From Dasania marina DSM 21967 (GTDB lineage: Bacteria > Pseudomonadota > Gammaproteobacteria > Pseudomonadales > Dasaniaceae), in contig NZ_KB891587.1 in the NCBI RefSeq assembly GCF_000373485.1, positions 1 through 64,000 on the forward strand: a stretch of 64,000 bases of DNA, read 5' to 3'. The first letter of the stretch is position 1. The number at the start of each line of letters is the position of its first letter. Shown one piece after another: positions 9,926-55,651 of this stretch. A program made the translations under genes and the position numbers. The notes beneath the pieces were generated by a model. That model did no database searches, was not told the DNA's origin, and worked only from the letters and a program-made list of their open reading frames with translations.

Positions 9926-10134
9926 GTTTAAATCACTTTTATTCTCAATATATGCCAGAATCGGCACTATATAGGTCTTATTATACGCAAGGTTTTGGCA
10001 AAGCACCTATTTATTCCCCCCAGAGCCAAACCCGCATCACTTTGTTAGCCGCAGCCATCGCCAGATAATACATGCTATGCTTCCTATACTAAGCATAACA
10101 ATGACCATCATTTAGATTAGCAGCCGCCGTATTA

Positions 10135-12039
10135 ATGACCTCACAACTTATTCGCATTTCCATGCCTGCGCGCATCAAGCAATTTTTCTTGGCCTCAGCG
10201 CTTATTGCGCTAGCCCCCCTCTGTCATGCAGAACTGGCAACAGAGCTCTATAGCATGAAGGCGCAAGCCTATATTAATTCCGAAGCCGCTATAGACCAGC
10301 TTAACACCCTCAAAAACACAGCCGTCCAGCAAGACCTTCGCGCTGAACAGTGGTATTGGTTACGCTTGGCAGAAGCACAGGGCATTATCGTACTGCTGGA
10401 CGATATGCAGATCTCGCTTAACGCCGCAGCTAATGTCATAAAACAAACAGAAAATGCCGAAGCTCAGGTGCAGTTATTATTGCTACAAGGTGTGCTGGCA
10501 CAAAACAATGGCGCGCTAGCAGAGTCCAAAACACATTTCACCAACGCTATAGCTCAAGCTATGGCGGCAGATCTAAAACATCTGGAGCTGCGCACCAGAG
10601 TTGAGCTCGCCTACACCTATACCTTAGAGGATAATTTTCAAGACGCCCTCGAAACCAATCACCTTGCCCATATGGAGGCGCGAGAACTAGGGGATATTTT
10701 TATTACCGCCCTAGCAGAAGATATCTATGGTGCAATCTATGGCTATATGGACCAATACGAGGAATCCATAGCCTACTACCAAAAAGCCTTAGCGGGCTAC
10801 CAACAACTGGGCTATCAGCAATACACCTCCTCCGCAATTTTTGGCATAGCCACTAGCCATCGCTACTGGGGCAAATACCAAGAAGCGCTCAAATACTTTC
10901 ACCAACACGAACAACTATTATCCCACACCACTCGCGAAGGTAGTAAGTTTTACGGCTACTACGGCATAGCCACCACCTTGGCCGCCATGAACAACTGCGA
11001 CGCAGCCCTGCCCGCTATAAACAAAGCAGTTAACACTGAAGGCCCAAAAGATTACAAAGCCGAGCTCTATAAATTACAGGCCAAGTGCTATATCAAACAA
11101 CAACAGCTCAGCGAAGCTGAAACCGCCCTCAATGCCGCCATTGACATTTTTGCACAGCTACCCGACTTAACCGACACCAACTGGCAAATTGAAACCTTAC
11201 TTATCGCCGCTAAACTGGCACAAGCTAATAATAACTACCCCCTAGCCTTTGCATTACTGAGTAATTACAGCGAGAAAAAATCACGTATAGACTCGGCCAC
11301 CTACTCAGAAAAAATGATTGCCTACAAGGCCACACTGGAAAACCAGCAGAAAGATTTAAAAATAAAACTGCTTACCGAAAACGCAAAAACACAGCAGCTT
11401 ACCGCCAATAATCAAATGCGCGTTAATAAACTGCAAAAAATGCTGTTAATAGGTTTGAGCCTCACAGTGCTTATTATTCTTGCCTTTGTCTATATATTGT
11501 ATAAAAACTTAAAGCGCATTTCTGAGCTATCTATACGCGATGAACTCACCGGCCTCTATAATCGCCGTTATATTTTTAATTATTTAAATAATATTCTCAG
11601 CAACGAAAAAGAAGGCAAGCAATTTTCTATTATTATTGCCGACATCGATAATTTTAAACAGATTAACGATAACTACGGCCACCCCGCTGGCGACAGCGTT
11701 ATTAAAGCCATAGCCAAGCTTAGCCTAGATACCCTACGAATGACCGATGTAGTAGGCCGCATAGGTGGTGAAGAGTTTTTATTTATACTACCGCGCATAC
11801 CGCCCAAACAGTGTGAAGAGATAGTCAGCCGCCTCTTGCAGGCGGTACGCGAGAAAGCCTTTACTCTGCCCAACGGCGAGGTTATTCATGTCACCATCAG
11901 TATGGGCATATGCCATAACAGCGCCGACATCACCGATGCCAAAACGATTTTTCATAAGGCCGATGAAGCCTTATATGTATCTAAAAATAATGGCAAAGAT
12001 CAAATTAACAGCGTAGAAAACGCCGCCCTCAGCACTTAG
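10135..12039 (+). CDS. Periplasmic TPR sensor diguanylate cyclase (GGDEF)
   Basis: 634 residues. Signal peptide 1-32 (cleaved after LCHA), a periplasmic TPR-like helical region ~35-400, a coiled coil ~400-436, one membrane helix ~437-456, then a cytoplasmic GGDEF domain ~465-625. The active-site motif is GGEEF at 544-548 and the inhibitory I-site RMTD lies five residues before it, so it should make c-di-GMP with product feedback. A second Met (residue 10, base 10162) is another possible start. The TPR part suggests it senses a protein or peptide in the envelope; the ligand is unknown. It overlaps the convergent acyP by four bases. Confidence 0.9.
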   Translation: MTSQLIRISMPARIKQFFLASALIALAPLCHAELATELYSMKAQAYINSEAAIDQLNTLKNTAVQQDLRAEQWYWLRLAEAQGIIVLLDDMQISLNAAANVIKQTENAEAQVQLLLLQGVLAQNNGALAESKTHFTNAIAQAMAADLKHLELRTRVELAYTYTLEDNFQDALETNHLAHMEARELGDIFITALAEDIYGAIYGYMDQYEESIAYYQKALAGYQQLGYQQYTSSAIFGIATSHRYWGKYQEALKYFHQHEQLLSHTTREGSKFYGYYGIATTLAAMNNCDAALPAINKAVNTEGPKDYKAELYKLQAKCYIKQQQLSEAETALNAAIDIFAQLPDLTDTNWQIETLLIAAKLAQANNNYPLAFALLSNYSEKKSRIDSATYSEKMIAYKATLENQQKDLKIKLLTENAKTQQLTANNQMRVNKLQKMLLIGLSLTVLIILAFVYILYKNLKRISELSIRDELTGLYNRRYIFNYLNNILSNEKEGKQFSIIIADIDNFKQINDNYGHPAGDSVIKAIAKLSLDTLRMTDVVGRIGGEEFLFILPRIPPKQCEEIVSRLLQAVREKAFTLPNGEVIHVTISMGICHNSADITDAKTIFHKADEALYVSKNNGKDQINSVENAALST

Positions 12040-45248: not shown

Positions 45249-46379
45249 ATGACTGACAGCACCCTACACGCCCTGTTTTCACCGGTTAGCTTTGGCACTG
45301 GCGAACTGCCCAACCGCATAGTCATGTCACCCATGTCGCGGGAGCACTGTGAGGGCGGCGTACCCGGCCCGCAGGTGGCCGATTACTACCGCCGCCGCGT
45401 AGAAGGCGGGGTGGGTTTAATTATTACTGAAGGCACTTTTATAGATCACCAAGGAGCCAGTGCCTACCCCGACAATATGCCGCGCTTTTATGGCGACGAC
45501 GCCTTAGCGGGCTGGGCTGAAGTGCTCAGTGCTGTGCATCGTGCGGGTGGTAAAATTATCCCCCAGCTATGGCATGTGGGTGCGGTGAGACGCCCCGGCG
45601 CTGCCGGACCCAACCCCAGCGCCCCAGGTTACGGCCCCATGGAGCTACGCGGTAAAGATGACCAACTCAAAGTAAAAGCCATGAGCCAGCAAGACATAGA
45701 CGATGTTACCTCTGCTTATGTAAAGGCCGCTCTACAGGCCGAGAGCATGGGCTTTGACGGTATAGAAATACACGCTGCGCACGGCTATTTAATTGATCAA
45801 TTCTTTTGGGCCGAGATGAATCAACGCAACGACCAATATGGCGGCTCTTTAGAAAACCGGCTGCGCCTTGGCTGCGACGTTGTTAGCGCGATACGGGCAG
45901 TGGTCAGTAAAGACTTCCCCATCGTATTTCGCTTTTCACAGTGGAAGCAGCAAGACTATAAGGCGACTATCGCCAGCAACCCCGATGAGCTGTCGATTAT
46001 TGTGAATCACTTGGCCAAGGCCGGGGTGGATATCTTCCACGTCAGTACCCGTCGCTTTTGGCAACCGGCTTTTGCCGACTCACCGTTAACCATGGCGGCT
46101 TGGGTGAAGAAACTCAGCGGCAAGCCGGTAATAGCGGTAGGTAGCGTGGGTTTAGATACCGAGTTTGGCTGGGAGCTATGGAGCCAGCCCGAGGAGCGTC
46201 ATTTATCGAAGGTGTCGAACGTACAGCAGTTGGGGGATGGCCTACACAATCAAGATTTTGATTTTATTGCGGTGGGCCGCGCGCTGATTGCCGATGCGGA
46301 ATGGGCTAATAAAGTTCGTGAGCAGCGCATCAATGAAATTACGCCCTTTGAGCGCAGCTGCTTAGATACGCTTGTATAA
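45249..46379 (+). CDS. Old Yellow Enzyme-family NAD(P)H:flavin oxidoreductase
   Basis: 376 residues from ATG 45249; an in-frame TTG at 45237 is less likely. TIM-barrel FMN enzyme that reduces activated C=C bonds. Visible: FSPVSFGTGELPNRIVMSPM (FMN strand 1), PQLWHVGAVRR, GFDGIEIHAAHGYLIDQFF with the His pair for substrate, and DFIAVGRALIADAEW (phosphate loop). It is a short OYE without the C-terminal FeS and flavodoxin-like parts of the DgcA/2,4-dienoyl reductase group. Convergent, 18-base overlap with the receiver gene. Confidence 0.9.
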   Translation: MTDSTLHALFSPVSFGTGELPNRIVMSPMSREHCEGGVPGPQVADYYRRRVEGGVGLIITEGTFIDHQGASAYPDNMPRFYGDDALAGWAEVLSAVHRAGGKIIPQLWHVGAVRRPGAAGPNPSAPGYGPMELRGKDDQLKVKAMSQQDIDDVTSAYVKAALQAESMGFDGIEIHAAHGYLIDQFFWAEMNQRNDQYGGSLENRLRLGCDVVSAIRAVVSKDFPIVFRFSQWKQQDYKATIASNPDELSIIVNHLAKAGVDIFHVSTRRFWQPAFADSPLTMAAWVKKLSGKPVIAVGSVGLDTEFGWELWSQPEERHLSKVSNVQQLGDGLHNQDFDFIAVGRALIADAEWANKVREQRINEITPFERSCLDTLV

Positions 46380-46754
46380 GCTTGCGCCGGCTACCAGATC
46401 GTTGACCGTTTGTAATAAGTCAGCAAAGTCAAAAGGCTTTCTTATCACCGAATGTGACCCTAAAATAGTGGCAATTTTAAGACAGTCTTTGCCCATTTCC
46501 GTTGTTTCCGGCATGCCGCTAATCGCAATAATTTTAGTTGCCAGGCCGGAATTAGTTAAAGCCTGAATAACTTCATAGCCATCCCTATTCGGCATGAAGA
46601 TATCGGTTAGCACGCAGTCAAAGTATTGCTTAGCTATTTGCCGTATCGCATCCTCACCATCCACAGCCGTAACAACCTCATAGCCCTCATGCATTAGCTT
46701 TTCAGCCATCATCTGGCGCAACACATCATCATCCTCTACTACCAGTAAACGCAT
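46362..46754 (-). CDS. Single-domain response regulator receiver
   Basis: 130 residues, one CheY-like receiver with no output domain. Acidic Asp8/Asp9, phospho-acceptor Asp51 in LTDIFMPNRDG, Ser79 and Lys106 in IRKPFDF all present, so it should be phosphorylatable. It starts directly after the PAS-like gene stop; AGGAGG overlaps the end of that gene, so the two form an operon. No histidine kinase is nearby. Confidence 0.92.
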   Translation of the reverse strand: MRLLVVEDDDVLRQMMAEKLMHEGYEVVTAVDGEDAIRQIAKQYFDCVLTDIFMPNRDGYEVIQALTNSGLATKIIAISGMPETTEMGKDCLKIATILGSHSVIRKPFDFADLLQTVNDLVAGASLYKRI

Positions 46755-47321
46755 TTATTCCCCTCCTGCAGACTTCAACATCACATCCTTGCACTCTGGG
46801 CAAAGACCATGGCTAATACGCTGGCCTTTATAACGATCTGAAAACAAATAGAGCCTATCAATCGCCTCTTCAACTTCGACCCACAACTTACTAGACACCT
46901 TAAACTGATTACACCAACTGCACATACAGATCATTTCAGGGTGGCCAGCATCAAGCCGATGGTCTTTCAAAAAATCAATGCGCCCCCTAGGCTCTTCCTT
47001 GGTCAAACAACTATTAAAGCTGAGTAAACCGTGAGTAACAGGCGTTATCGTCATCGTTAAATACCGGCGTTTATCAGCGGAGTCACACCTAAACGGCAAG
47101 CTTACCCCCAAACCACTCGCGCGCACGCGACTAATTAATAACTCGGTTAATAGCTTGGTTTCTTCACCGTCAATATATTGCGACAAAGGGCTATTAATAA
47201 GCACCTTGCTATCAAAATCCCAGTCATTATCACGGGCAAAATTAATAAAAGACTGATTAACCGCAACAATGTGATTGTTATTATTTAAGGTATATTGAAC
47301 GTCACCCATAGCATTACTCAC
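46755..47321 (-). CDS. PAS-like protein with C-terminal CxxC/CxxC motif
   Basis: 188 residues. The N-terminal ~100 residues resemble a PAS sensor (TLNNNNHIVAVNQSF, later TMTITPV). The C-terminal part has MCSWCNQFK and SHGLCPECKD, with Cys134, 137, 174 and 177 placed as a likely metal or Fe-S site; the CSWC...SHGLCPEC pattern occurs in other PAS signalling proteins. There is no kinase domain. Cotranscribed with the receiver, so it may be a sensor or partner for it. Start could also be Met5. Confidence 0.65.
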   Translation of the reverse strand: MSNAMGDVQYTLNNNNHIVAVNQSFINFARDNDWDFDSKVLINSPLSQYIDGEETKLLTELLISRVRASGLGVSLPFRCDSADKRRYLTMTITPVTHGLLSFNSCLTKEEPRGRIDFLKDHRLDAGHPEMICMCSWCNQFKVSSKLWVEVEEAIDRLYLFSDRYKGQRISHGLCPECKDVMLKSAGGE

Positions 47322-47687: not shown

Positions 47688-48614
47688 TTAGCGCTTGGCC
47701 GCATGCATATATAGAAACTGTAATGCCAGCGAGGCGCCGGCTAGGGAGGTGATTTCTGCATGATCGTAAGCTGGGGCCACTTCTACCAAATCGTAACCGA
47801 CGATATTTAAGTCGGCTATGCCGCGTAAAATCTGTAAAACCTTGTTACTACTCAGGCCACCCACCACGGGCGTGCCCGTGCCGGGCGCGTAGGCCGGGTC
47901 TAGGGCATCGATATCAAAACTTAAGTAAGCAGGGCGATCACCCACTCGCGCTTTAATCGCTGCCACTGTTGCCGCTACTGACTGCTCATTGACGGTGTCG
48001 GCATCCAACACTTGGTAGCCGTGGCCCTCGGGGTTGTATTCTGTGCGTATGCCAATTTGCACGGAGCGTTCGGGGTCTACCAAGCCCTCTTTAGGGGCGT
48101 GATAAAACATGGTGCCGTGGGAGTATTTCACCTCTTCTTTATAGGTGTCGGTGTGGGCATCAAAATGAATCAGCGATAACTTGCCATGGATTTTGGCGTG
48201 AGCGCGTAGCAACGGTAAGGTAACAAAGTGATCGCCCCCTAAACTTAGCAGGGTTTTGCCCGCAGCGAGTATTTTACTGGCCTCAGCTTCGACCAATTCC
48301 AGCATAGCCTCGCTATTGCCGCATTCAAATTGCACATCGCCGTAGTCTATAACCGTGATTTTATCGTCTATAGAAAATGACCAAGGCCAACGCTTTTCTT
48401 CCCAGCGCAGGTTGCCGCTAGCTTGGCGTATACCATTGGGGCCGCCACGGGTACCCGCTCGGCCACTGGTGGCCAAGTCGTAAGGTATACCCATAACCAC
48501 CACATCAACGTCATCATCCGCTAGGTCACGGGAAAGGGGAAAACCCATATAGCTGAAGATATTGCCGTAAATGCCGTATTCTTCGGCTAAAAACTCTGGC
48601 TGCTTGTTGCTCAT
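47688..48614 (-). CDS. speB: Agmatinase
   Basis: 308 residues from ATG 48614, supported by AGGAGG nine bases upstream; a longer frame starts at 48650. Splits agmatine into putrescine and urea with two Mn ions. Ureohydrolase motifs: SLGGDHFVTLPLLRAH, LIHFDAHTDTY, LSFDIDALDPAYAPGTGTP. The sequence follows E. coli SpeB closely, including ATSGRAGTRGGPNGIRQ and GTMFYHAPKEGL. Separated from frmA by a terminator, so probably separately controlled. Confidence 0.95.
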   Translation of the reverse strand: MSNKQPEFLAEEYGIYGNIFSYMGFPLSRDLADDDVDVVVMGIPYDLATSGRAGTRGGPNGIRQASGNLRWEEKRWPWSFSIDDKITVIDYGDVQFECGNSEAMLELVEAEASKILAAGKTLLSLGGDHFVTLPLLRAHAKIHGKLSLIHFDAHTDTYKEEVKYSHGTMFYHAPKEGLVDPERSVQIGIRTEYNPEGHGYQVLDADTVNEQSVAATVAAIKARVGDRPAYLSFDIDALDPAYAPGTGTPVVGGLSSNKVLQILRGIADLNIVGYDLVEVAPAYDHAEITSLAGASLALQFLYMHAAKR

Positions 48615-48647
48615 TGGTGGGGCCTCCTGCTGTAATCTAGTTACCAA

Positions 48648-48674
48648 CAAAAACGGGCAACCTAAGTTACCCGT
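48648..48674 (-). terminator. Terminator after frmA
   Basis: ACGGG...CCCGT (48653-48674) with an inner AAC/GTT pairing and one mismatch. On the minus strand it ends in a T-rich run (GTTTTTGTT). It lies between frmA and speB. Confidence 0.7.
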
Positions 48675-48741: not shown

Positions 48742-49848
48742 CTAAAATTCAACGACTGAGCGTATGCTTTCGCCGGAGTGCATTAAATCAAAGGCTTTGT
48801 TAATGTCCTGCAAAGGCATTTTATGAGTGATTAAATCTTTAATATTGATTTTTCCATCCATAAACCAGTCCACTACCTTAGGCACGTCAGTTCGACCACG
48901 GGCACCACCAAAAGCCGTACCACGCCAGACTCGGCCGGTCACTAACTGGAAGGGCCTGGTGCTAATTTCTTGGCCGGCACCCGCCACACCGATGATGTAA
49001 GACTCCCCCCAACCTTTGTGGCAGCACTCTAAGGCCTGACGCATGGTATTAACATTACCTATGCACTCAAAGCTGTAGTCAGCACCGCCGTCGGTAGCCT
49101 GCACTATGGCATCAACTACATTGTCGACTTCCTTGGGGTTGATAAAGTCGGTCATGCCAAACTGCTTGGCAATGGCAACCTTAGAAGGGTTGATGTCGAC
49201 ACCAATAATCTTATTGGCCCCCACCATCTTGGCGCCCTGAATCACATTCAAGCCTATGCCACCCAAACCAAACACCACCACATTGGAGCCGGGCTCAACC
49301 TTGGCATCAAAGGCCACCACACCCACGCCGGTAGTAACACCACAGCCTATATAACAGGCTAAATCGAAGGGCGCGTCTTTACGGATTTTGGCTAGGGAAA
49401 TTTCTGGCAATACCGTGAAGTTAGAGAAAGTAGAGCACCCCATATAGTGCAAAATTGGCTCGCCATCTAAAGAAAAGCGGCTGGTACCGTCGGGCATTAG
49501 ACCCTGGCCCTGAGTGGCGCGTACCGCTTGGCATAAATTGGTTTTGGGGTTTAAACAAAATTTACAGTTGCGACACTCGGCCGTGTATAGCGGGATAACA
49601 TGATCGCCAGGCTTTAGCGAGGTAACACCTTTACCCACTTCACGTACTATGCCCGCACCTTCGTGTCCTAAAATCGCCGGGAAGGCCCCTTCGGGGTCAT
49701 CACCTGACAGGGTAAATGCATCGGTATGGCACACACCGGTGGCCATAATTTCTACTAATACTTCGCCCGCCTGTGGGCCCTGTAAATCAACTTCAACTAT
49801 CTCTAAGGGTTTACCCGCTTGAAAGGCAACTGCCGCACGCGTTTTCAT
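48742..49848 (-). CDS. frmA: S-(hydroxymethyl)glutathione dehydrogenase / class III alcohol dehydrogenase
   Basis: 368 residues. Oxidises the glutathione adduct of formaldehyde to S-formylglutathione with NAD. Catalytic zinc: Cys in [11 protein letters not shown] and HEGAG; structural zinc: [18 protein letters not shown] fold: [23 protein letters not shown] 49848 has GAGGA upstream. Forms an operon with purU (43-base gap), giving formaldehyde to formate plus formyl-THF disposal. No S-formylglutathione hydrolase gene is next to it. Confidence 0.96.
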
Positions 49849-49891: not shown

Positions 49892-50761
49892 TTATTGGAA
49901 AACAACACACTTATTGCCACGCACAATAACTCGGTCATCTAAATGATAGCGCAAGGCTCTGGATAGCACCGAACTTTCTACGTCCTTACCCAGACGCACC
50001 AAGTCTTCTTTAGAGCAGCTGTGATTTACCCGTATCACATCTTGCTCAATGATAGGGCCTTCATCCAAATCTTCGGTGACGTAGTGGCTAGTCGCGCCTA
50101 TTAACTTAACACCGCGCTCATAGGCTTTTTGGTAAGGGTTGGCGCCTATAAATGAAGGCAGGAAGCTGTGATGGATATTAATCAAGCGGCCGGCAAATTT
50201 TCTACATAGCTCTGGCGGGATAATTTGCATATATCTGGCCAGCACCACAGTATCGGCATTGTGACGCCCGATGATTTCATTCATCTGTTTAAACGCTTCG
50301 GCCTTGTTGTCTTTGTTAACCGGCAAGTAATGAAACGGTATACCGTGCCACTCAACCATACTGCGCAGGTTTTCGTGATTAGACACCACACAGGGAATCT
50401 CACAGTTCAGCTCATTACTATGCCAGCGGTATAAAAGATCAGCCAAACAGTGTGAGGCGTGGCTAGCCAAAAGCACCACTTTTTGTTTCTCGTTAGAGCC
50501 ACGCACAGTCCATATCATGTCGAACTTATCGGCAACCGCCTGAAACTGCTTGCGAAACTCTGCAATACTAATCGATAGTGAGTCAGCGTTAATGACATTA
50601 CGCATGTAAAACCAAGCACCCGGCACATCGGTATAGTGGTTAGACTCAACAAAAGAGCCATCGTGCTCGGCAACAAATTTACTGACTTCGGCAACGATAC
50701 CCACCGCATCGGGGCAAGATATAACCAGGCAATAGGTTTGGGCCTGTTCGGTATCACTCAT
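49892..50761 (-). CDS. purU: Formyltetrahydrofolate deformylase
   Basis: 289 residues. Hydrolyses 10-formyl-THF to THF and formate, balancing one-carbon units. N-terminal ACT domain ~9-85 (LVISCPDAVGIVAEVSKFV), then formyltransferase-fold catalytic domain: RYMQIIPPELCRKFAGRLINIHHSFLPSFIGANPY region with His and the Asp in TEDLDEGPIIEQD. In pseudomonads purU genes often accompany demethylation pathways that release formaldehyde. Divergent from the TetR-GNAT gene. Confidence 0.95.
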   Translation of the reverse strand: MSDTEQAQTYCLVISCPDAVGIVAEVSKFVAEHDGSFVESNHYTDVPGAWFYMRNVINADSLSISIAEFRKQFQAVADKFDMIWTVRGSNEKQKVVLLASHASHCLADLLYRWHSNELNCEIPCVVSNHENLRSMVEWHGIPFHYLPVNKDNKAEAFKQMNEIIGRHNADTVVLARYMQIIPPELCRKFAGRLINIHHSFLPSFIGANPYQKAYERGVKLIGATSHYVTEDLDEGPIIEQDVIRVNHSCSKEDLVRLGKDVESSVLSRALRYHLDDRVIVRGNKCVVFQ

Positions 50762-51130
50762 AACTACGACTCTCTTTCTCAGGTTTCGATTGGGTAAATC
50801 ATCACATCTATCTTTAGCAGCCCACTCTCTTTTAAAAAGCGCACAGCCAAGACGATAACTAATGTCACAAACACGTATAGCTCTATACCTTAGGGCAAGC
50901 TGACTCTGATAGGTTTAACGCTTACAGCATAGCTTATTAACTGCGGCCCAGCGGCTGACGGTGGGCGCCGCAGGTAACGGTATACCAAGCACTGCAAGCA
51001 TAGCGAGAAAATAACTAGCATTGCGTTATCAGAGCTGCTTTACTTTGGCTGATTATACGGATATTTAATTGACTAAACAGGCGTATAAAATACTTATTCC
51101 TCAAGGAAACAATCACAGCGAGCCCCCACT
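50762..51130. promoter_or_regulatory. Divergent region between purU and the TetR-GNAT gene
   Basis: 369 bases. CTGCGGC (50941-50947) and GCCGCAG (50967-50973) form a possible hairpin. CTCTGATA (~50904) and TATCAGAG (~51025) are inverted halves far apart. The region likely holds both promoters and any operator for the TetR-type regulator, but no site is certain. Confidence 0.4.
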
Positions 51131-52252
51131 ATGTCCAGCAGCAAAACCCATGTCGGTGCAGCCATACAAAGCGAACGCAAACGCCTGCTTATTGAAGCCA
51201 CCCTCAGCGCCATCTCTGAGTTTGGGCTATCGCAACTAACCCTAGCCAAAATTGCCGCCGGTGCCGGCTTAACCGCAGGCTCAGTCAATTTTCATTTTGC
51301 CAGCAAAGAAGCCCTATTATTGGAAACGCTGCAATCTGTAGCCGAAGAATTAGATCAAAATATTAGCACTGCCCTCCATAAAGCCGGCACCGACCCCGGC
51401 AAACGCCTGCTGGCCATTATCAACGCTCAACTAGACCCCGAAATTACCGAGCACCGCAAAGTGGCGGTATGGAATGCTTTTTCAGCTGAACGCTGGGCTA
51501 GGGAGGATTACAAACGTATCTGCGGTAGTCGCGACAGTAATAACTTTGAGCTAGTACTCAACCTCTGTACTGAAATTATTCAGCGTGCCGACAAACAACA
51601 AGTGATGAACGCCCGCGCTATAGCCAGCGGCATACAAGGCATTATCGATGACACTTGGCACGACATACTCTACGCCGGTGAAGATTTTGACCGCGAGCAA
51701 GCCATGACCTTATGCCACGCATTTTTAGCCAGTGTATTCCCTTGGCGCTTTACCATGCCCGCCCAACCCAGTGCTAAAAACCCACAACTCTCTACCGCCG
51801 ACAACAGCCTAACAGTGCTTAAAGCAGGGCCTAAACAGCTAGCCGACGCCGCCCATCTCTTTGACCTATACCGACAGTTTTACCGCGAACGCAGTAATAT
51901 CAAATTGGCTACCGACTATCTTAAAAGTCATATAGACAATAACAGCTCCACTATTTTTATTGCCTATACCAGCGACGGCACTGCAGTGGGGTTTACCCAG
52001 CTCTATCGCAGTTATTGCTCACTAGAGGCCGCATCTATTTTTGTTTTATACGATTTATATGTGGACAGCAGCGCCAGAAAATTAGGGGTAGCCAGAACCT
52101 TAATGAACCACGCCAAAGCCTACGCCAAAGAATGCAAAGCCCAGCGTATAGATTTAGAAACAGCGGTAGATAATTACCCTGCCCAAGCCCTATATGCAGA
52201 TCTGGGTTATCAAAAAGAAGAACAATATTTTAAATATTCATTAGAATTATAA
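51131..52252 (+). CDS. TetR/BetI-like regulator fused to a GNAT acetyltransferase
   Basis: 373 residues. Residues ~13-205 are a TetR repressor like BetI: HTH at ~33-58 (LTLAKIAAGAGLTAGSVNFH) and a ligand core with KVAVWNAFSAERWA. Residues ~226-373 are a GNAT domain: acetyl-CoA loop RKLGVARTL at ~316-324, beta strands FVLYDLYVDSS, and Tyr-rich end YADLGYQKEEQYFKY. A ~20-residue Ser/Ala-rich linker joins them. It is divergent from purU-frmA, so it may control formaldehyde or one-carbon genes. The GNAT substrate is unknown. No good RBS is visible before ATG 51131. Confidence 0.85.
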   Translation: MSSSKTHVGAAIQSERKRLLIEATLSAISEFGLSQLTLAKIAAGAGLTAGSVNFHFASKEALLLETLQSVAEELDQNISTALHKAGTDPGKRLLAIINAQLDPEITEHRKVAVWNAFSAERWAREDYKRICGSRDSNNFELVLNLCTEIIQRADKQQVMNARAIASGIQGIIDDTWHDILYAGEDFDREQAMTLCHAFLASVFPWRFTMPAQPSAKNPQLSTADNSLTVLKAGPKQLADAAHLFDLYRQFYRERSNIKLATDYLKSHIDNNSSTIFIAYTSDGTAVGFTQLYRSYCSLEAASIFVLYDLYVDSSARKLGVARTLMNHAKAYAKECKAQRIDLETAVDNYPAQALYADLGYQKEEQYFKYSLEL

Positions 52253-52271: not shown

Positions 52272-52309
52272 AAAAAAGCTGACACACATAGGTGTGTCAG
52301 CTTTTTTTC
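52272..52309. terminator. Bidirectional terminator
   Basis: AAAAAAGCTGACACA, loop CATAGG-like, TGTGTCAGCTTTTTTT. A 15-bp stem with A run on one side and T run on the other, between the convergent TetR-GNAT and lipoprotein genes; serves both. Confidence 0.93.
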
Positions 52310-52320
52310 GTGCCATTTAC

Positions 52321-53085
52321 TTAAGTATCCAACAAGCCATAAACACCCAGTGAGTATGAGCGACGCTGCTGCTCACCTAATAGCGAAGACTGACGTATAG
52401 CCTTACCAAAACTCACATCCTCTGTTAAATAACGGCTATTACCGGTACCGGTATCAAAACCCACCATACCGGGGTCAGATAAATAATAGGCAATCACATC
52501 GCCTTGCTGCACCCCCACGCTTACGGAAAAGCTTACTTTTTGCAGGCCGGCGTCTTTAATCACTAGGGTTTGACTTTCCCATACCACCACTAAACTATCT
52601 TCAACTCTACGCATGACTTTCACCCGTAAATTGCCCGAGCGTATAAAATGTCCGCCTACACTAGTCAGCGAACCATCTTTGGGTACGGCATTGGCTAAGT
52701 CCACGACTAATAAAGGTTGCTCATCTATAGCGGTGCGCTCAACCAACTCACCGCCTATATAGTCCAGCAAATTACCCTCTAGCAAAAAGCTTTTTAAGGC
52801 ATCAACTTGCTGCTGCACAAACTGGCGCACCTGACCGCGCAATTGGGTAGAGGTCACTACCCGCGAGTTTTTCTCACCGCTTAACACGCCTATCACCCTG
52901 TCGCGCTCGGCCATCTCACGCTGTAAATTTGCCTCATCGGATTTCAGCTGGGTGATATAGGAATTAGCTTCCTCTAATTGATTTTGCAAACCAGTTTTTT
53001 CATTTTGTAACTGCTGTATATCCGGCGGGGTTTGACAGGCCGCCAGCAATGAGGCCATAGCCACCATTATCACTTTTTTATTCAT
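52321..53085 (-). CDS. Coiled-coil lipoprotein, unknown family
   Basis: 254 residues; no family recognised. Lipobox LAAC with lipidated Cys17 (MNKKVIMVAMASLLAAC). A coiled coil follows at ~25-75 (QLQNEKTGLQNQLEEANSY). The C-terminal ~150 residues look beta-rich (RSGNLRVKVMRRVEDSLVVV, later VSFSVSVGVQQGDVIAYYL). It directly follows the kinase gene (10-base gap), ATG 53085 has AAGGG upstream, so the pair is an operon. The lipoprotein may be an outer partner of the membrane kinase; that is inference from order only. Confidence 0.7.
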   Translation of the reverse strand: MNKKVIMVAMASLLAACQTPPDIQQLQNEKTGLQNQLEEANSYITQLKSDEANLQREMAERDRVIGVLSGEKNSRVVTSTQLRGQVRQFVQQQVDALKSFLLEGNLLDYIGGELVERTAIDEQPLLVVDLANAVPKDGSLTSVGGHFIRSGNLRVKVMRRVEDSLVVVWESQTLVIKDAGLQKVSFSVSVGVQQGDVIAYYLSDPGMVGFDTGTGNSRYLTEDVSFGKAIRQSSLLGEQQRRSYSLGVYGLLDT

Positions 53086-53095
53086 CTCTATACCC

Positions 53096-55651
53096 TTATG
53101 GCTTAATCACAAATGATTGACTGTAAATATTTTTATTAGCTAATAAAATTTCTAAGCGATAACCGCCAGCTTTAAACCCTTCTACCGGCCGCTTAATTTT
53201 AAAAAAGTTGTTGCCTGCCTGGCCACTAACAATAACCGGCACCGCGGCAATTTGTACGGTTTGCTCACCGTCGTATAGGGTAGCCTGTAACACCGTGGTG
53301 CTGTCAGCAAAATTATTGTAACTAAAGCCTATATGTAACACCCTACTAGCTTTAAATTGTTCGGGCAGATTTTGCGCTAAATCAGTAATAGGCTCGCCAC
53401 TTAACTTTAGCCGCTCTATTACCGGTTGCAGGGCATCAATTTCGGCCTGACTGGCTTGTAACAACGTATTAGCCGGCAACAAATCCAAAGCGGGGGAGAG
53501 AACCTGCTGCGCCAAGTCTAACTCGCGCCGCCTAATATGCCCCTGCACCTGCTGATTTAATTGCTCAGTAAACCCCTGCAGTTGTGCCCGAGCCTGGCTA
53601 TTGCCGGGCGCTATAGCCAACACCTCTTGCAAGGTTTGCACGGCGGTGATGTGGCCGCCAAAAATCGCCCCCTGTTGCGCCAATTGCTCAGCCTCCACCA
53701 ACAAGGTTGTTATTTTTTGCTGCTTAGCTTGCGCTGCTTGCACTTGGCTTTGTAGTTGTTTTAGCTCACTGTGCGCGGCATTAACACTCAAACCTTTGGC
53801 GATAAAACTTAAAGCACTTTGATAACGGCCCTGCTGGTTGGCGGCTAGGGCTTTTTGATAATAGGCCTGAGTAATACGCTGCAAACCGTCACGGGCTTTA
53901 GCATTGTCGGCATCCACCGCCAACACGGCATCATAATACACCTTGGCATTCTGCTCTGGCGGGCTTAACCACTGCTCTTGCGCAAATAATTGTTCAGCCT
54001 GCGCTAATTGCTGCTGCAGTGTCTGCTGATCACTGAGCTTACTGCGCAGGCGCTGATAGCGCTTGTTGTTTTCTAAATCGGGGAAATAAGCCAACGCCCC
54101 CACCAGTGTAGCCTCCGTCACCGCCAGTTGCTCATCAGTACTGTTTTGCTGATCTAAGGCGGCAGCGACATTTTCCAACAACTCACTTTCTAGCGTCGCC
54201 AAGCCTTGGCTGGCGCCGGCATGCCCTGGCTGTTCGGCCAATAGGTTTTGATAAGCGGCGATTAAGGCCGGCAGCTGCTCAAGGTCTACCGCATAGGCCT
54301 GTTCTAATTCAGCCACCTGCTGCGCTAATGTCGGCTGGATAGGTTCGGCCGCCGATGCTATCTCTGTTTCTGACCCTGTCGCTTGTGATGCAGTTTGGGT
54401 GTCAGGCGCAAGGGCTTGCTGAGTCTCGTCCGCACCCACTGCGAGTGGATCACTGCCAGTAATCGGCTCAACAACAACTTGCTCTGCCACTGGCTCAATC
54501 GCGGGCGTTAATAATTGCTCTAAAGTCAGCTTAGGTTTTTCTACCAAGCCCAATCGTTCTAGGGCCACTTGCTGAGCCGCCGCACTGGGGGGAAGCTGTA
54601 GGCCAAACAGAAAATAATAAGCGCCAGCCAAGGCCGCCACTAACAGCACCGGCAATAACCATAGCACTGAGGGCCCGGTAGCGGCGGCGGGAATTTGCTG
54701 GCTGGCTTGGGCGCGCAACACGGTGTCATTATGGTTGCCGCTAAAGGCCATAGAGGCTGCTTTTTTGGTCGCAGCGTTATTAAAATATTGTTTGCGGGAT
54801 TTATCGATCACCGCACCCGACATGCGCGCTAAGTCTGCCACTAATTCCGCGCCGCGCTGGTAGCGCTGCTCCCTATTCTTAGCTAGAAGCTTGTTGAGTA
54901 TAGGCTGGAACACGGCCAGCCGTATGGGCAGCTCGGGCACGGGCTCTGAAATATGTTTTATGCCTATGGTCACCGCTGAGTCGCCGTCGTAGGGCACGGT
55001 GCCCAGCAGCATTTTATAAAACACTATGCCTAGGCTATATAAATCAGCGCGGCCATCCACCTTTTGCCCACGCGCCTGCTCGGGGCTCATATAATAGGGC
55101 GTACCTAAAGCCATACCAGTTTGGGTGAGGCCGCTGGCTACATCGTCGGCCTTGGCTATACCAAAGTCCATCAGCACGGCGCGGCCGCTCTCTGCGTGCA
55201 GCATGATATTTTCGGGTTTGACATCGCGGTGTACATAGCCTTTTTGACCGGCAAAATCTAACGCCGAACCTATCTCACGTAGCACCCGTAAAATGTCATC
55301 GCCACTGAGCTCAGCCAAGCAATTCTTTAATTCGCGCCCCGGCACATACTCCATAGATAAATAGTGATGGCCCTTGTGTATACCGACATCGTGCACCGTG
55401 ACTATATGCGGGTGGATTAAACGGCTCACCACTTTCGCCTCGTGAATAAAGCGCTCGCTAAAGTCGGCATCTTCCGACAGCGAGGCAGCCATCACCTTTA
55501 GCGCCACTTCGCGATCAAAGCTTTGCTGTATGGCTAGGTATACCGTCGCCATCCCCCCCTTACCTAAAGGGCGTATCAACTTATAGCCGGGTATTTCTAT
55601 ATCTATGGGATTAGCGGTTGATGTAGTGATGGTGGTGCCCCTGCACAGCAA
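53096..55651 (-). CDS. Membrane Ser/Thr protein kinase with helical-repeat C-terminus
   Basis: 851 residues from TTG 55651. Kinase domain ~23-280: Gly loop GKGGMATV (30-37), Lys52 in ALKVM, catalytic HRDVKPEN (141-148), DFG (162-164), SPE (189-191); all catalytic residues are present, as in PknB/PpkA-type enzymes. Membrane helix ~328-350. The extracytoplasmic part has a Gln/Glu/Ala-rich, TPR-like helical region (~440-730) and a final beta domain (~765-851). Start is uncertain: TTG has no RBS; AGGGG precedes an ATC, a rare start, at residue 8. It is cotranscribed with the lipoprotein gene. No phosphatase gene nearby. Confidence 0.85.
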   Translation of the reverse strand: MLCRGTTITTSTANPIDIEIPGYKLIRPLGKGGMATVYLAIQQSFDREVALKVMAASLSEDADFSERFIHEAKVVSRLIHPHIVTVHDVGIHKGHHYLSMEYVPGRELKNCLAELSGDDILRVLREIGSALDFAGQKGYVHRDVKPENIMLHAESGRAVLMDFGIAKADDVASGLTQTGMALGTPYYMSPEQARGQKVDGRADLYSLGIVFYKMLLGTVPYDGDSAVTIGIKHISEPVPELPIRLAVFQPILNKLLAKNREQRYQRGAELVADLARMSGAVIDKSRKQYFNNAATKKAASMAFSGNHNDTVLRAQASQQIPAAATGPSVLWLLPVLLVAALAGAYYFLFGLQLPPSAAAQQVALERLGLVEKPKLTLEQLLTPAIEPVAEQVVVEPITGSDPLAVGADETQQALAPDTQTASQATGSETEIASAAEPIQPTLAQQVAELEQAYAVDLEQLPALIAAYQNLLAEQPGHAGASQGLATLESELLENVAAALDQQNSTDEQLAVTEATLVGALAYFPDLENNKRYQRLRSKLSDQQTLQQQLAQAEQLFAQEQWLSPPEQNAKVYYDAVLAVDADNAKARDGLQRITQAYYQKALAANQQGRYQSALSFIAKGLSVNAAHSELKQLQSQVQAAQAKQQKITTLLVEAEQLAQQGAIFGGHITAVQTLQEVLAIAPGNSQARAQLQGFTEQLNQQVQGHIRRRELDLAQQVLSPALDLLPANTLLQASQAEIDALQPVIERLKLSGEPITDLAQNLPEQFKASRVLHIGFSYNNFADSTTVLQATLYDGEQTVQIAAVPVIVSGQAGNNFFKIKRPVEGFKAGGYRLEILLANKNIYSQSFVIKP

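Follow-up and report, generated by a model that had tools for sequence, protein, structure and literature searches.

A single gene of Dasania marina joins a TetR repressor-type half and a GNAT acetyltransferase half in one chain, and this fusion is real. Conserved palindromes ahead of the gene and its relatives appear, judged by sequence, to mark the regulon of the TetR half. The reading that we favor, and to which we give about an even chance, is a TetR-type repressor that governs its own gene and an amine-catabolic regulon and that brings along a small-amine acetyltransferase. The fusion, its preserved active site, the gene synteny and the candidate regulon-marking sites can all be read from the genomes compared here. 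The gene lies in the window, by which we mean the whole 64-kb stretch of DNA analyzed (64,000 nucleotides), among the following features:

47688–48650, minus strand: agmatinase (ureohydrolase; 438 bits against a cut-off of 302), in the same direction as frmA and purU
48742–49848, minus strand: frmA, S-(hydroxymethyl)glutathione dehydrogenase, above its NCBIfam equivalog cut-off
49892–50761, minus strand: purU, formyltetrahydrofolate deformylase, above its NCBIfam equivalog cut-off; the divergent neighbor
50762–51130: divergent intergenic region from purU to the fusion gene
51052–51069: operator-like palindrome 1 (22.6 bits, matrix built without Dasania sites)
51072–51089: operator-like palindrome 2 (20.1 bits, matrix without Dasania sites), 20 bp from the first
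51131–52252, plus strand: TetR-GNAT fusion gene, an uninterrupted reading frame from ATG to TAA, 373 amino acids
51188–51325, plus strand: TetR DNA-binding domain, residues 20–65 (PF00440 TetR_N, E 1e-10)
51401–51739, plus strand: BetI-type ligand/dimerization domain, residues 91–203 (PF13977 TetR_C_6, E 2.5e-8; the fold matches)
51746–51808, plus strand: interdomain linker, residues ~206–226, model confidence low around 211–220
51809–52249, plus strand: GNAT domain of the Dpa polyamine acetyltransferase type, by sequence and structure matches
52272–52308: A/T-flanked perfect hairpin, terminator-like by eye, 3' of the fusion gene between convergent genes

The first-pass annotation had placed a TetR protein and an acetyltransferase in one chain, divergent from frmA and purU, and both observations were confirmed. 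The TetR_N, TetR_C_6 and Acetyltransf_1 matches all exceed the Pfam gathering cut-offs, and the GNAT half occupies residues about 227–372 (Acetyltransf_1 at 243–360, E 3.1e-18). In the AlphaFold2 model both domains fold well and the connection between them is loose (mean pLDDT 87.5, below 50 at residues 1–5 and 213–217), and its pTM of 0.53 leaves the mutual placing of the TetR and GNAT domains unsure. The one same-genus genome searched, that of a sister species (G001), encodes a fusion of equal length, 373 amino acids, with 87% identity. The survey of fused homologues that had been suggested returned 35 other records with full-length TetR-GNAT relatives. Because 35 of 68 loci match over essentially the whole length, a frameshift or sequencing artifact was ruled out. 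A sigma-70 promoter scan around the fusion gene gave a sole site on the opposite strand, within chance, and the hairpin at 52272–52308 was seen by eye only and is absent from the terminator-scan listing. A gene pair at 52321–55651 runs toward the fusion gene and recurs in the sister species; the first gene is Ser/Thr-kinase-like by eye, and the second, lipoprotein-like, has no NCBIfam match. At 46362–47321 of the window, a receiver-only response regulator stands beside a 188-aa protein with no NCBIfam match at 1e-5.

To place the GNAT half, we compared it with solved proteins, and Dpa and 2eui head the GNAT rows in each list (PDB sequence, Foldseek and VIA-align). The best PDB sequence matches were 2eui and the Dpa entries 8a9o and 8a9n (E 6.5e-21 to 6.2e-20), the best Foldseek match was 8a9o (34% identity, TMt 0.89), and the first VIA-align row was 8a9n (Z 21.3, rmsd 1.4 over 142 residues). 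In the available portion of its description (PMC10267138), Dpa of Acinetobacter baumannii acetylates 1,3-diaminopropane and other polyamines too, forms a strand-swapped dimer and has an active site composed of Y21, Y25, Y65, Y128, D80, D81 and E116. In the PDB-match alignment these residues correspond to Y247, Y251, Y292, Y355, Y307, D308 and E343 of the fusion, respectively (own count, with a chain numbering offset of 7). The fusion keeps six of the seven (Y247, Y251, Y292, D308, E343 and Y355), and the position of Dpa D80 is Tyr in 35/35 intact fusion proteins (Tyr307 in the Dasania fusion).

Among 37 aligned proteins (alignment A4), the equivalents of Y21, Y25, D81, E116 and Y128 are all kept in 35 and that of Y65 in 34, with X in one more. 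The exceptions are two diverged paralogue rows, each keeping two of the seven residues and losing five. The GNAT-type acetyl-CoA loop region is also kept. Because this pattern of six residues plus a Tyr for D80 is so uniform, small-amine catalysis has likely been under selection, with a shifted pocket, and specificity may differ from that of Dpa. The two proteins are alike in GNAT fold, in being about a third identical and in six of seven active-site residues; they differ in that Dpa is a stand-alone dimer whereas the Dasania GNAT domain sits behind a TetR half and has Tyr for D80. Dpa-like dimerization would suit the TetR dimer in the fusion.

The N-terminal half belongs to the TetR family, with a TetR_N helix-turn-helix and a helical C-domain found by Pfam, in the model and by fold search. 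It resembles BetI in combining TetR_N with a BetI-type C-domain, but it misses both curated BetI cut-offs (99.1 against 201.3 and 97.9 against 118 bits, NCBIfam equivalog), has other gene neighbors and carries an additional enzyme domain. A BetI/choline identity was rejected on those cut-offs. By VIA-align many TetR proteins match with close Z values, including 4kwa, crystallized with choline, and 4nel, which contains N,N-dimethylmethanamine; at 18% identity, these matches say little about the ligand of the TetR half.

A pattern scan with one genome per species yielded 68 loci: 35 TetR-GNAT, 3 of a diverged TetR-GNAT paralogue, 7 TetR-Rieske and 23 that we treated as TetR without a fused enzyme (stand-alone TetR). 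Locus counts use contig loci only and the Dasania window is not counted among the 35; the whole-genome loci L033–L041, all but L037, duplicate the records of contig loci L048, L049, L069, L071–L074 and L079. The 35 relatives are 47–57% identical to the Dasania fusion, with the sister species at 87%, and the hosts that bear a name include SAR92/Porticoccaceae, Haliea/Halioglobus, HTCC2148, Pseudohongiella, OM182 and Dasania, while many records are labeled no further than Gammaproteobacteria. Within the host order, 11 of 390 genomes match the fusion at 1e-40, host included; ten of these, the host again among them, match over both domains and one (G018) over the TetR part only. A phylum-wide sample of 398 genomes held a single match, the host itself, and no full-length relative was found on plasmids, where 0 of 12 records cover 80%. 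The diverged paralogues (L086, L087 and L090) lie outside the gene cluster described below and lack its operator, and in L086 and L087, the two that were aligned, the active site is mostly lost, by five of seven residues in each. The L074 and L086 records are titled Klebsiella pneumoniae (MAG MH-08apr19-278); their genes are closest to the uncultured gammaproteobacterial MAG L073 and their contigs (G017) are placed in Dasania's order, so the species label looks wrong.

Most TetR-GNAT relatives lie in an amine-catabolism-like cluster with genes for a Rieske N-demethylase-like oxygenase, an FAD oxidoreductase, aminotransferases, agmatinase and sometimes purU. In many, a Rieske-led operon lies downstream of and convergent with the fusion gene. 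This operon is present in 23/35 loci, and 13 of the 23 have the order Rieske, FAD oxidoreductase, amidotransferase-like, class III aminotransferase (AT1) and agmatinase. The remaining operons lack the amidotransferase (1/23), pair Rieske with AT1 (5/23) or with FAD oxidoreductase (1/23), or consist of Rieske alone (3/23). On its upstream side the fusion gene is next to a second aminotransferase gene (AT2) in 16 of the 35 loci, purU in 7 and another FAD oxidoreductase in 6. A CoA ligase-like gene occurs in 12/35 clusters, and in L050 and L061 AT2 is the sole cluster gene nearby.

We compared these loci (n = 35) with the stand-alone-TetR loci (n = 23), a soft control in that the latter are mostly from Alphaproteobacteria and the reference proteins come from gammaproteobacterial clusters, and one in which all loci are related by descent. 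The respective counts were 18 and 0 for agmatinase (in the fetched flanks, which are incomplete in 12/35 TetR-GNAT loci), 28 and 1 for AT2, 23 and 4 for AT1, 23 and 2 for Rieske, 20 and 0 for a glutamine-synthetase-like gene, 9 and 0 for purU, and 1 and 0 for frmA. The single other locus with frmA near the fusion gene is that of the sister species. In the host genome the cluster pieces are dispersed: agmatinase, frmA and purU are in the window, Rieske, amidotransferase-like and AT1 genes are on another contig (C1) together with FAD oxidoreductases and GcvT-like genes, and an AT2 homologue (54%) lies elsewhere on C1.

The nearest solved relative of the cluster Rieske protein is the demethylase 4qup/3vca, which we take to be the stachydrine demethylase Stc2. 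Agmatinases (7lol/7lba) are nearest to the cluster agmatinase, and AT1 is nearest to aminotransferase 3i5t, with putrescine aminotransferase and polyamine:pyruvate transaminase lower in the list. AT2 is nearest to a hypothetical 4-aminobutyrate aminotransferase. The FAD oxidoreductase has weak matches to glycine oxidases and the glutamine-synthetase-like protein is nearest to glutamine synthetases, in neither case to polyamine enzymes. For the cluster, the best names from family models are gamma-glutamylputrescine synthetase and gamma-glutamyl-GABA hydrolase, both below their cut-offs. This gene content fits the breakdown of an amine with N-demethylation and would point to di/polyamine or agmatine-type amines. 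As for a pathway name, the homarine and polyamine/Rieske literature gave no evident match to the cluster among the matches listed.

An unsupervised search for palindromic motifs in 35 non-redundant fusion promoters, among them that of the window, returned an 18-bp palindrome, aTTAAAca-nn-tgTTTAAt, with an LL of 224.8 versus 27–35 for three mononucleotide-shuffled sets. A scanning matrix of 27 fusion-promoter sites was applied to all loci, covering 250 bp upstream of gene starts from a simple ORF caller at a 12-bit threshold. Sites in shared divergent promoters were credited to the fusion gene, and the divergent AT2, purU and FAD genes remain possible targets. Sites of at least 12 bits precede 30/35 fusion genes, 26 of them in tandem at 19–21 bp; most are the matrix training sites themselves. 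In the other five loci (L070–L074) no site of at least 12 bits lies upstream of the fusion gene, and L070 has a tandem pair elsewhere in the locus. Elsewhere in these loci, which come from related genomes, sites outside the fusion promoter precede 20 of 23 Rieske genes and none of 346 other gene starts. Where an intact TetR-GNAT gene is lacking (33 loci), sites precede 3/4 AT1, 1/4 CRT1 and only 1/5 Rieske genes, along with 12 of 322 gene starts that are unassigned. Of the 34 listed TetR-GNAT loci, 26 have a divergent gap of 50–220 bp, so that the tandem, where present, lies between the two genes. In the two Dasania species the gap measures 369 and 390 bp, with the sites at the fusion-gene end.

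A strong and conserved tandem palindrome, a putative operator of the kind that a TetR-family regulator may bind near its own gene, precedes the Dasania fusion gene. Within 50762–51130 the sole sites of at least 10 bits lie 42–79 bp before the fusion gene and at least 290 bp from purU. Across the 64-kb window, 51052 and 51072 are the only hits of at least 12 bits with the Dasania-free matrix (1.5 single hits expected), and 0/40 dinucleotide shuffles of the window had such a tandem pair. The sister species keeps both sites with three changes in 36 positions (two in palindrome 1, one in palindrome 2), within a block of high identity. For the host, the operator scan took in the window plus five stretches of 20 kb. 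One of these, L138 on contig C1, has a tandem pair at 10026/10046, 20 bp apart and 69–106 bp before the Rieske gene (17.1 and 14.7 bits, Dasania-free matrix); it holds no other hit, and 0/40 dinucleotide shuffles gave such a pair. The four other stretches comprise two with one isolated hit each and two without, and no site was found in L140, with a second Rieske homologue, or L139, with AT2. The L138 pair lies in the interval 9958–10105 between the Rieske gene and a same-direction gene at 10106–11158 that is AraC-type-like by eye. A BetI-like paralogue of the host (C1:33046), considered as regulator of the Rieske operon, was rejected, having no site of at least 12 bits before its own gene.

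The same TetR type is also fused to a different enzyme. Eight proteins are TetR fusions to a complete Rieske oxygenase, here called TetR-Rieske fusions (L080, L083, L084, L088, L089, L091, L092 and L143), three of which lie at:

L080, 1874–3733: TetR-Rieske fusion
L083, 9001–10854: TetR-Rieske fusion
L084, 9001–10806: TetR-Rieske fusion

TetR_N, TetR_C_6, Rieske and Ring_hydroxyl_A each exceed the Pfam cut-off in these proteins, and the Cys/His residues that are presumably cluster ligands, together with two His presumably of the iron site and one Asp, are invariant. The fused Rieske domain of L092 is nearest to carnitine monooxygenase, and the structure model made for one TetR-Rieske fusion is of low quality in its Rieske half (mean pLDDT 68.5). 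In a class sample, 3/369 genomes have such a fusion, two being the L083 and L092 records and the third L143. A site occurs at the TetR-Rieske promoter in all seven contig loci, three of them tandem, and these promoters are outside the matrix; in L143 a pair 20 bp apart lies directly before the TetR start. The order in L080 is TetR-Rieske, second Rieske and separate Dpa-like GNAT, and at this one locus a Dpa-like GNAT accompanies this TetR type even unfused. The TetR of G018 (L045) has a C-terminal extension unrecognized by Pfam, Rieske remnant-like by eye, and frmA in this genome has a 19.8-bit site 70 bp upstream (L045, 87–166), where 0.8 hits of 12 bits are expected in the 20-kb stretch.

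Stand-alone-TetR loci on Shinella/Rhizobium plasmids have three sites of at least 10 bits each (0.1–0.2 expected, not in the matrix), all at AT1, Rieske and FAD-oxidoreductase/TetR promoters, although only 8/23 stand-alone-TetR loci have any site of at least 12 bits. Because these stand-alone TetRs have the operator at similar targets, the regulon appears to be older than the fusions. In the TetR tree all enzyme-fused TetRs form one clade (100/99), separate from the stand-alone TetRs. Rieske-fused TetRs do not form one group within it, which would fit a Rieske-first fusion history, but neither do GNAT-fused TetRs (2 changes, with L071/L073 apart from the main 25). L080 is sister to the main GNAT clade at only 88/68, and several rows are long-branched. 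The GNAT domain tree, considered as a means of dating the fusion, is poorly resolved and was set aside; the separate GNAT of L080 groups in it among the fused ones without support.

We propose that the TetR half, as a dimer, would bind the paired 18-bp palindromes upstream of both its own gene and the Rieske operon, which in the host would comprise the Rieske, amidotransferase-like and aminotransferase genes on C1. A di/polyamine or N-methylated amine of the pathway, or its acetylated form, would alter DNA binding. Induction would then raise the amount of fusion protein, whose Dpa-like GNAT half would acetylate the free amine, and the resulting drop in inducer, or detoxification, would reset repression. 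From the sequences we infer binding and repression, an amine as substrate and the identity of substrate and inducer: repression because TetR proteins are mostly repressors, and an amine as inducer because AguR offers a precedent. AguR of Pseudomonas aeruginosa, as far as its available description goes (PMC4287709), is a TetR repressor released by agmatine. The idea that the acetyltransferase acts on the regulator's own ligand has gained in plausibility, the nearest solved GNATs including a diamine/polyamine acetyltransferase and most of the active site being kept; the ligand itself is our conjecture.

A broader and more tentative reading is that the clade consists of repressors that reset themselves, each TetR sensor being joined to an enzyme that uses up the sensor's inducer. 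The operator would have stayed constant while the enzyme was exchanged in evolution, with a carnitine-monooxygenase-like Rieske oxygenase in one branch and a Dpa-like acetyltransferase in another. On this reading the inducer may be a di/polyamine that carries N-methyl groups and comes from marine algae, methylated long-chain polyamines being a guess at an example. That one sensor type carries two different enzymes favors an enzyme that works on the ligand of the sensor or in its pathway, but co-expression alone accounts for much of this as well. Regulation does not need the enzyme, since stand-alone TetRs share the operator and have similar targets. The GNAT half could be a pathway or detoxification enzyme that is induced by riding on an autoregulated repressor, in a PutA-like logic, its substrate not being the inducer and its catalysis having no feedback on DNA binding. 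The operator-like sites before most fusion genes, the fusion of the same TetR clade to a Rieske oxygenase and the separate GNAT gene behind the TetR-Rieske gene of L080 all speak for co-regulation, which we hold to be possible, if doubtful, as the whole account. It leaves unexplained why at least four families have a fusion rather than an operon, which is weak evidence against it.

The kept acetyl-CoA loop would also serve a sensor of acetyl-CoA, as the first-pass annotation had suggested, or of acyl-CoA, in which the GNAT half tunes repression to acetyl-CoA supply with little turnover. Such a sensor would have no use for the substrate-side residues Y247, Y251, Y292 and E343, which are kept in nearly all intact fusions, and we consider it improbable. 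GNATs include protein acetyltransferases, and the CoA ligase-like gene of some clusters would accord with a GNAT half that acetylates the regulator itself or pathway enzymes. However, the available portion of the Dpa study (PMC10267138) reports no signal on proteins for this relative, and of all the alternatives this one seems to us the least probable. A BetI-like choline or glycine-betaine regulator of frmA-purU, the original proposal, is also quite improbable: the BetI-type C-domain, the divergent purU-frmA genes and the site before frmA in G018 favor it, but both BetI cut-offs are missed, the Dasania sites are far from purU, and frmA is near the fusion in the sister species alone of the 35 other loci. 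The expected response to choline finds no more support in the cluster, with its indications of di/polyamine or agmatine-type amines. The proposed link to one-carbon metabolism stands in part. Rieske N-demethylase-like enzymes release formaldehyde, and it is because the operator-marked target in relatives is such a gene that the link is partly supported; purU in 9/35 loci and the frmA site in one relative add to it. Control of frmA/purU by the fusion in Dasania is possible, G018 being one case in its favor and purU being divergent from the fusion gene in several relatives.

The fusion that we favor as a repressor with its own acetyltransferase has partial counterparts. PutA, a DNA-binding domain fused to proline-catabolic enzymes, is a catabolic enzyme that represses its own operon; the Dasania protein has the domains and operator-like sites, with putative repression and catalysis. 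The DNA-binding domain and enzymes of PutA are unrelated to those of the fusion, and we claim no homology. MarR-GNAT fusions also join an HTH regulator to a GNAT domain, but from another HTH family than TetR-GNAT, and the likeness is one of description. Similarly, AguR exerts TetR control of agmatine/polyamine genes and the fusion resembles it by description; the available part of the AguR paper (PMC4287709) mentions no enzyme domain. No paper on a TetR-GNAT or TetR-Rieske fusion was found among the matches listed in the open-licence literature, and TetR fusions are not mentioned in the portion of a GNAT review at hand (PMC4964394).

What began as one odd gene proves to belong to a family in which a single TetR clade is fused to either of two enzymes, and for which an operator and a regulon can be predicted. 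The cluster may mark an amine-demethylation-like route in the SAR92/Porticoccaceae and Halieaceae clades, which are common in the sea. Were the enzyme to consume the inducer, one molecule would both detect the signal and remove it, acting as a simple timer of expression.
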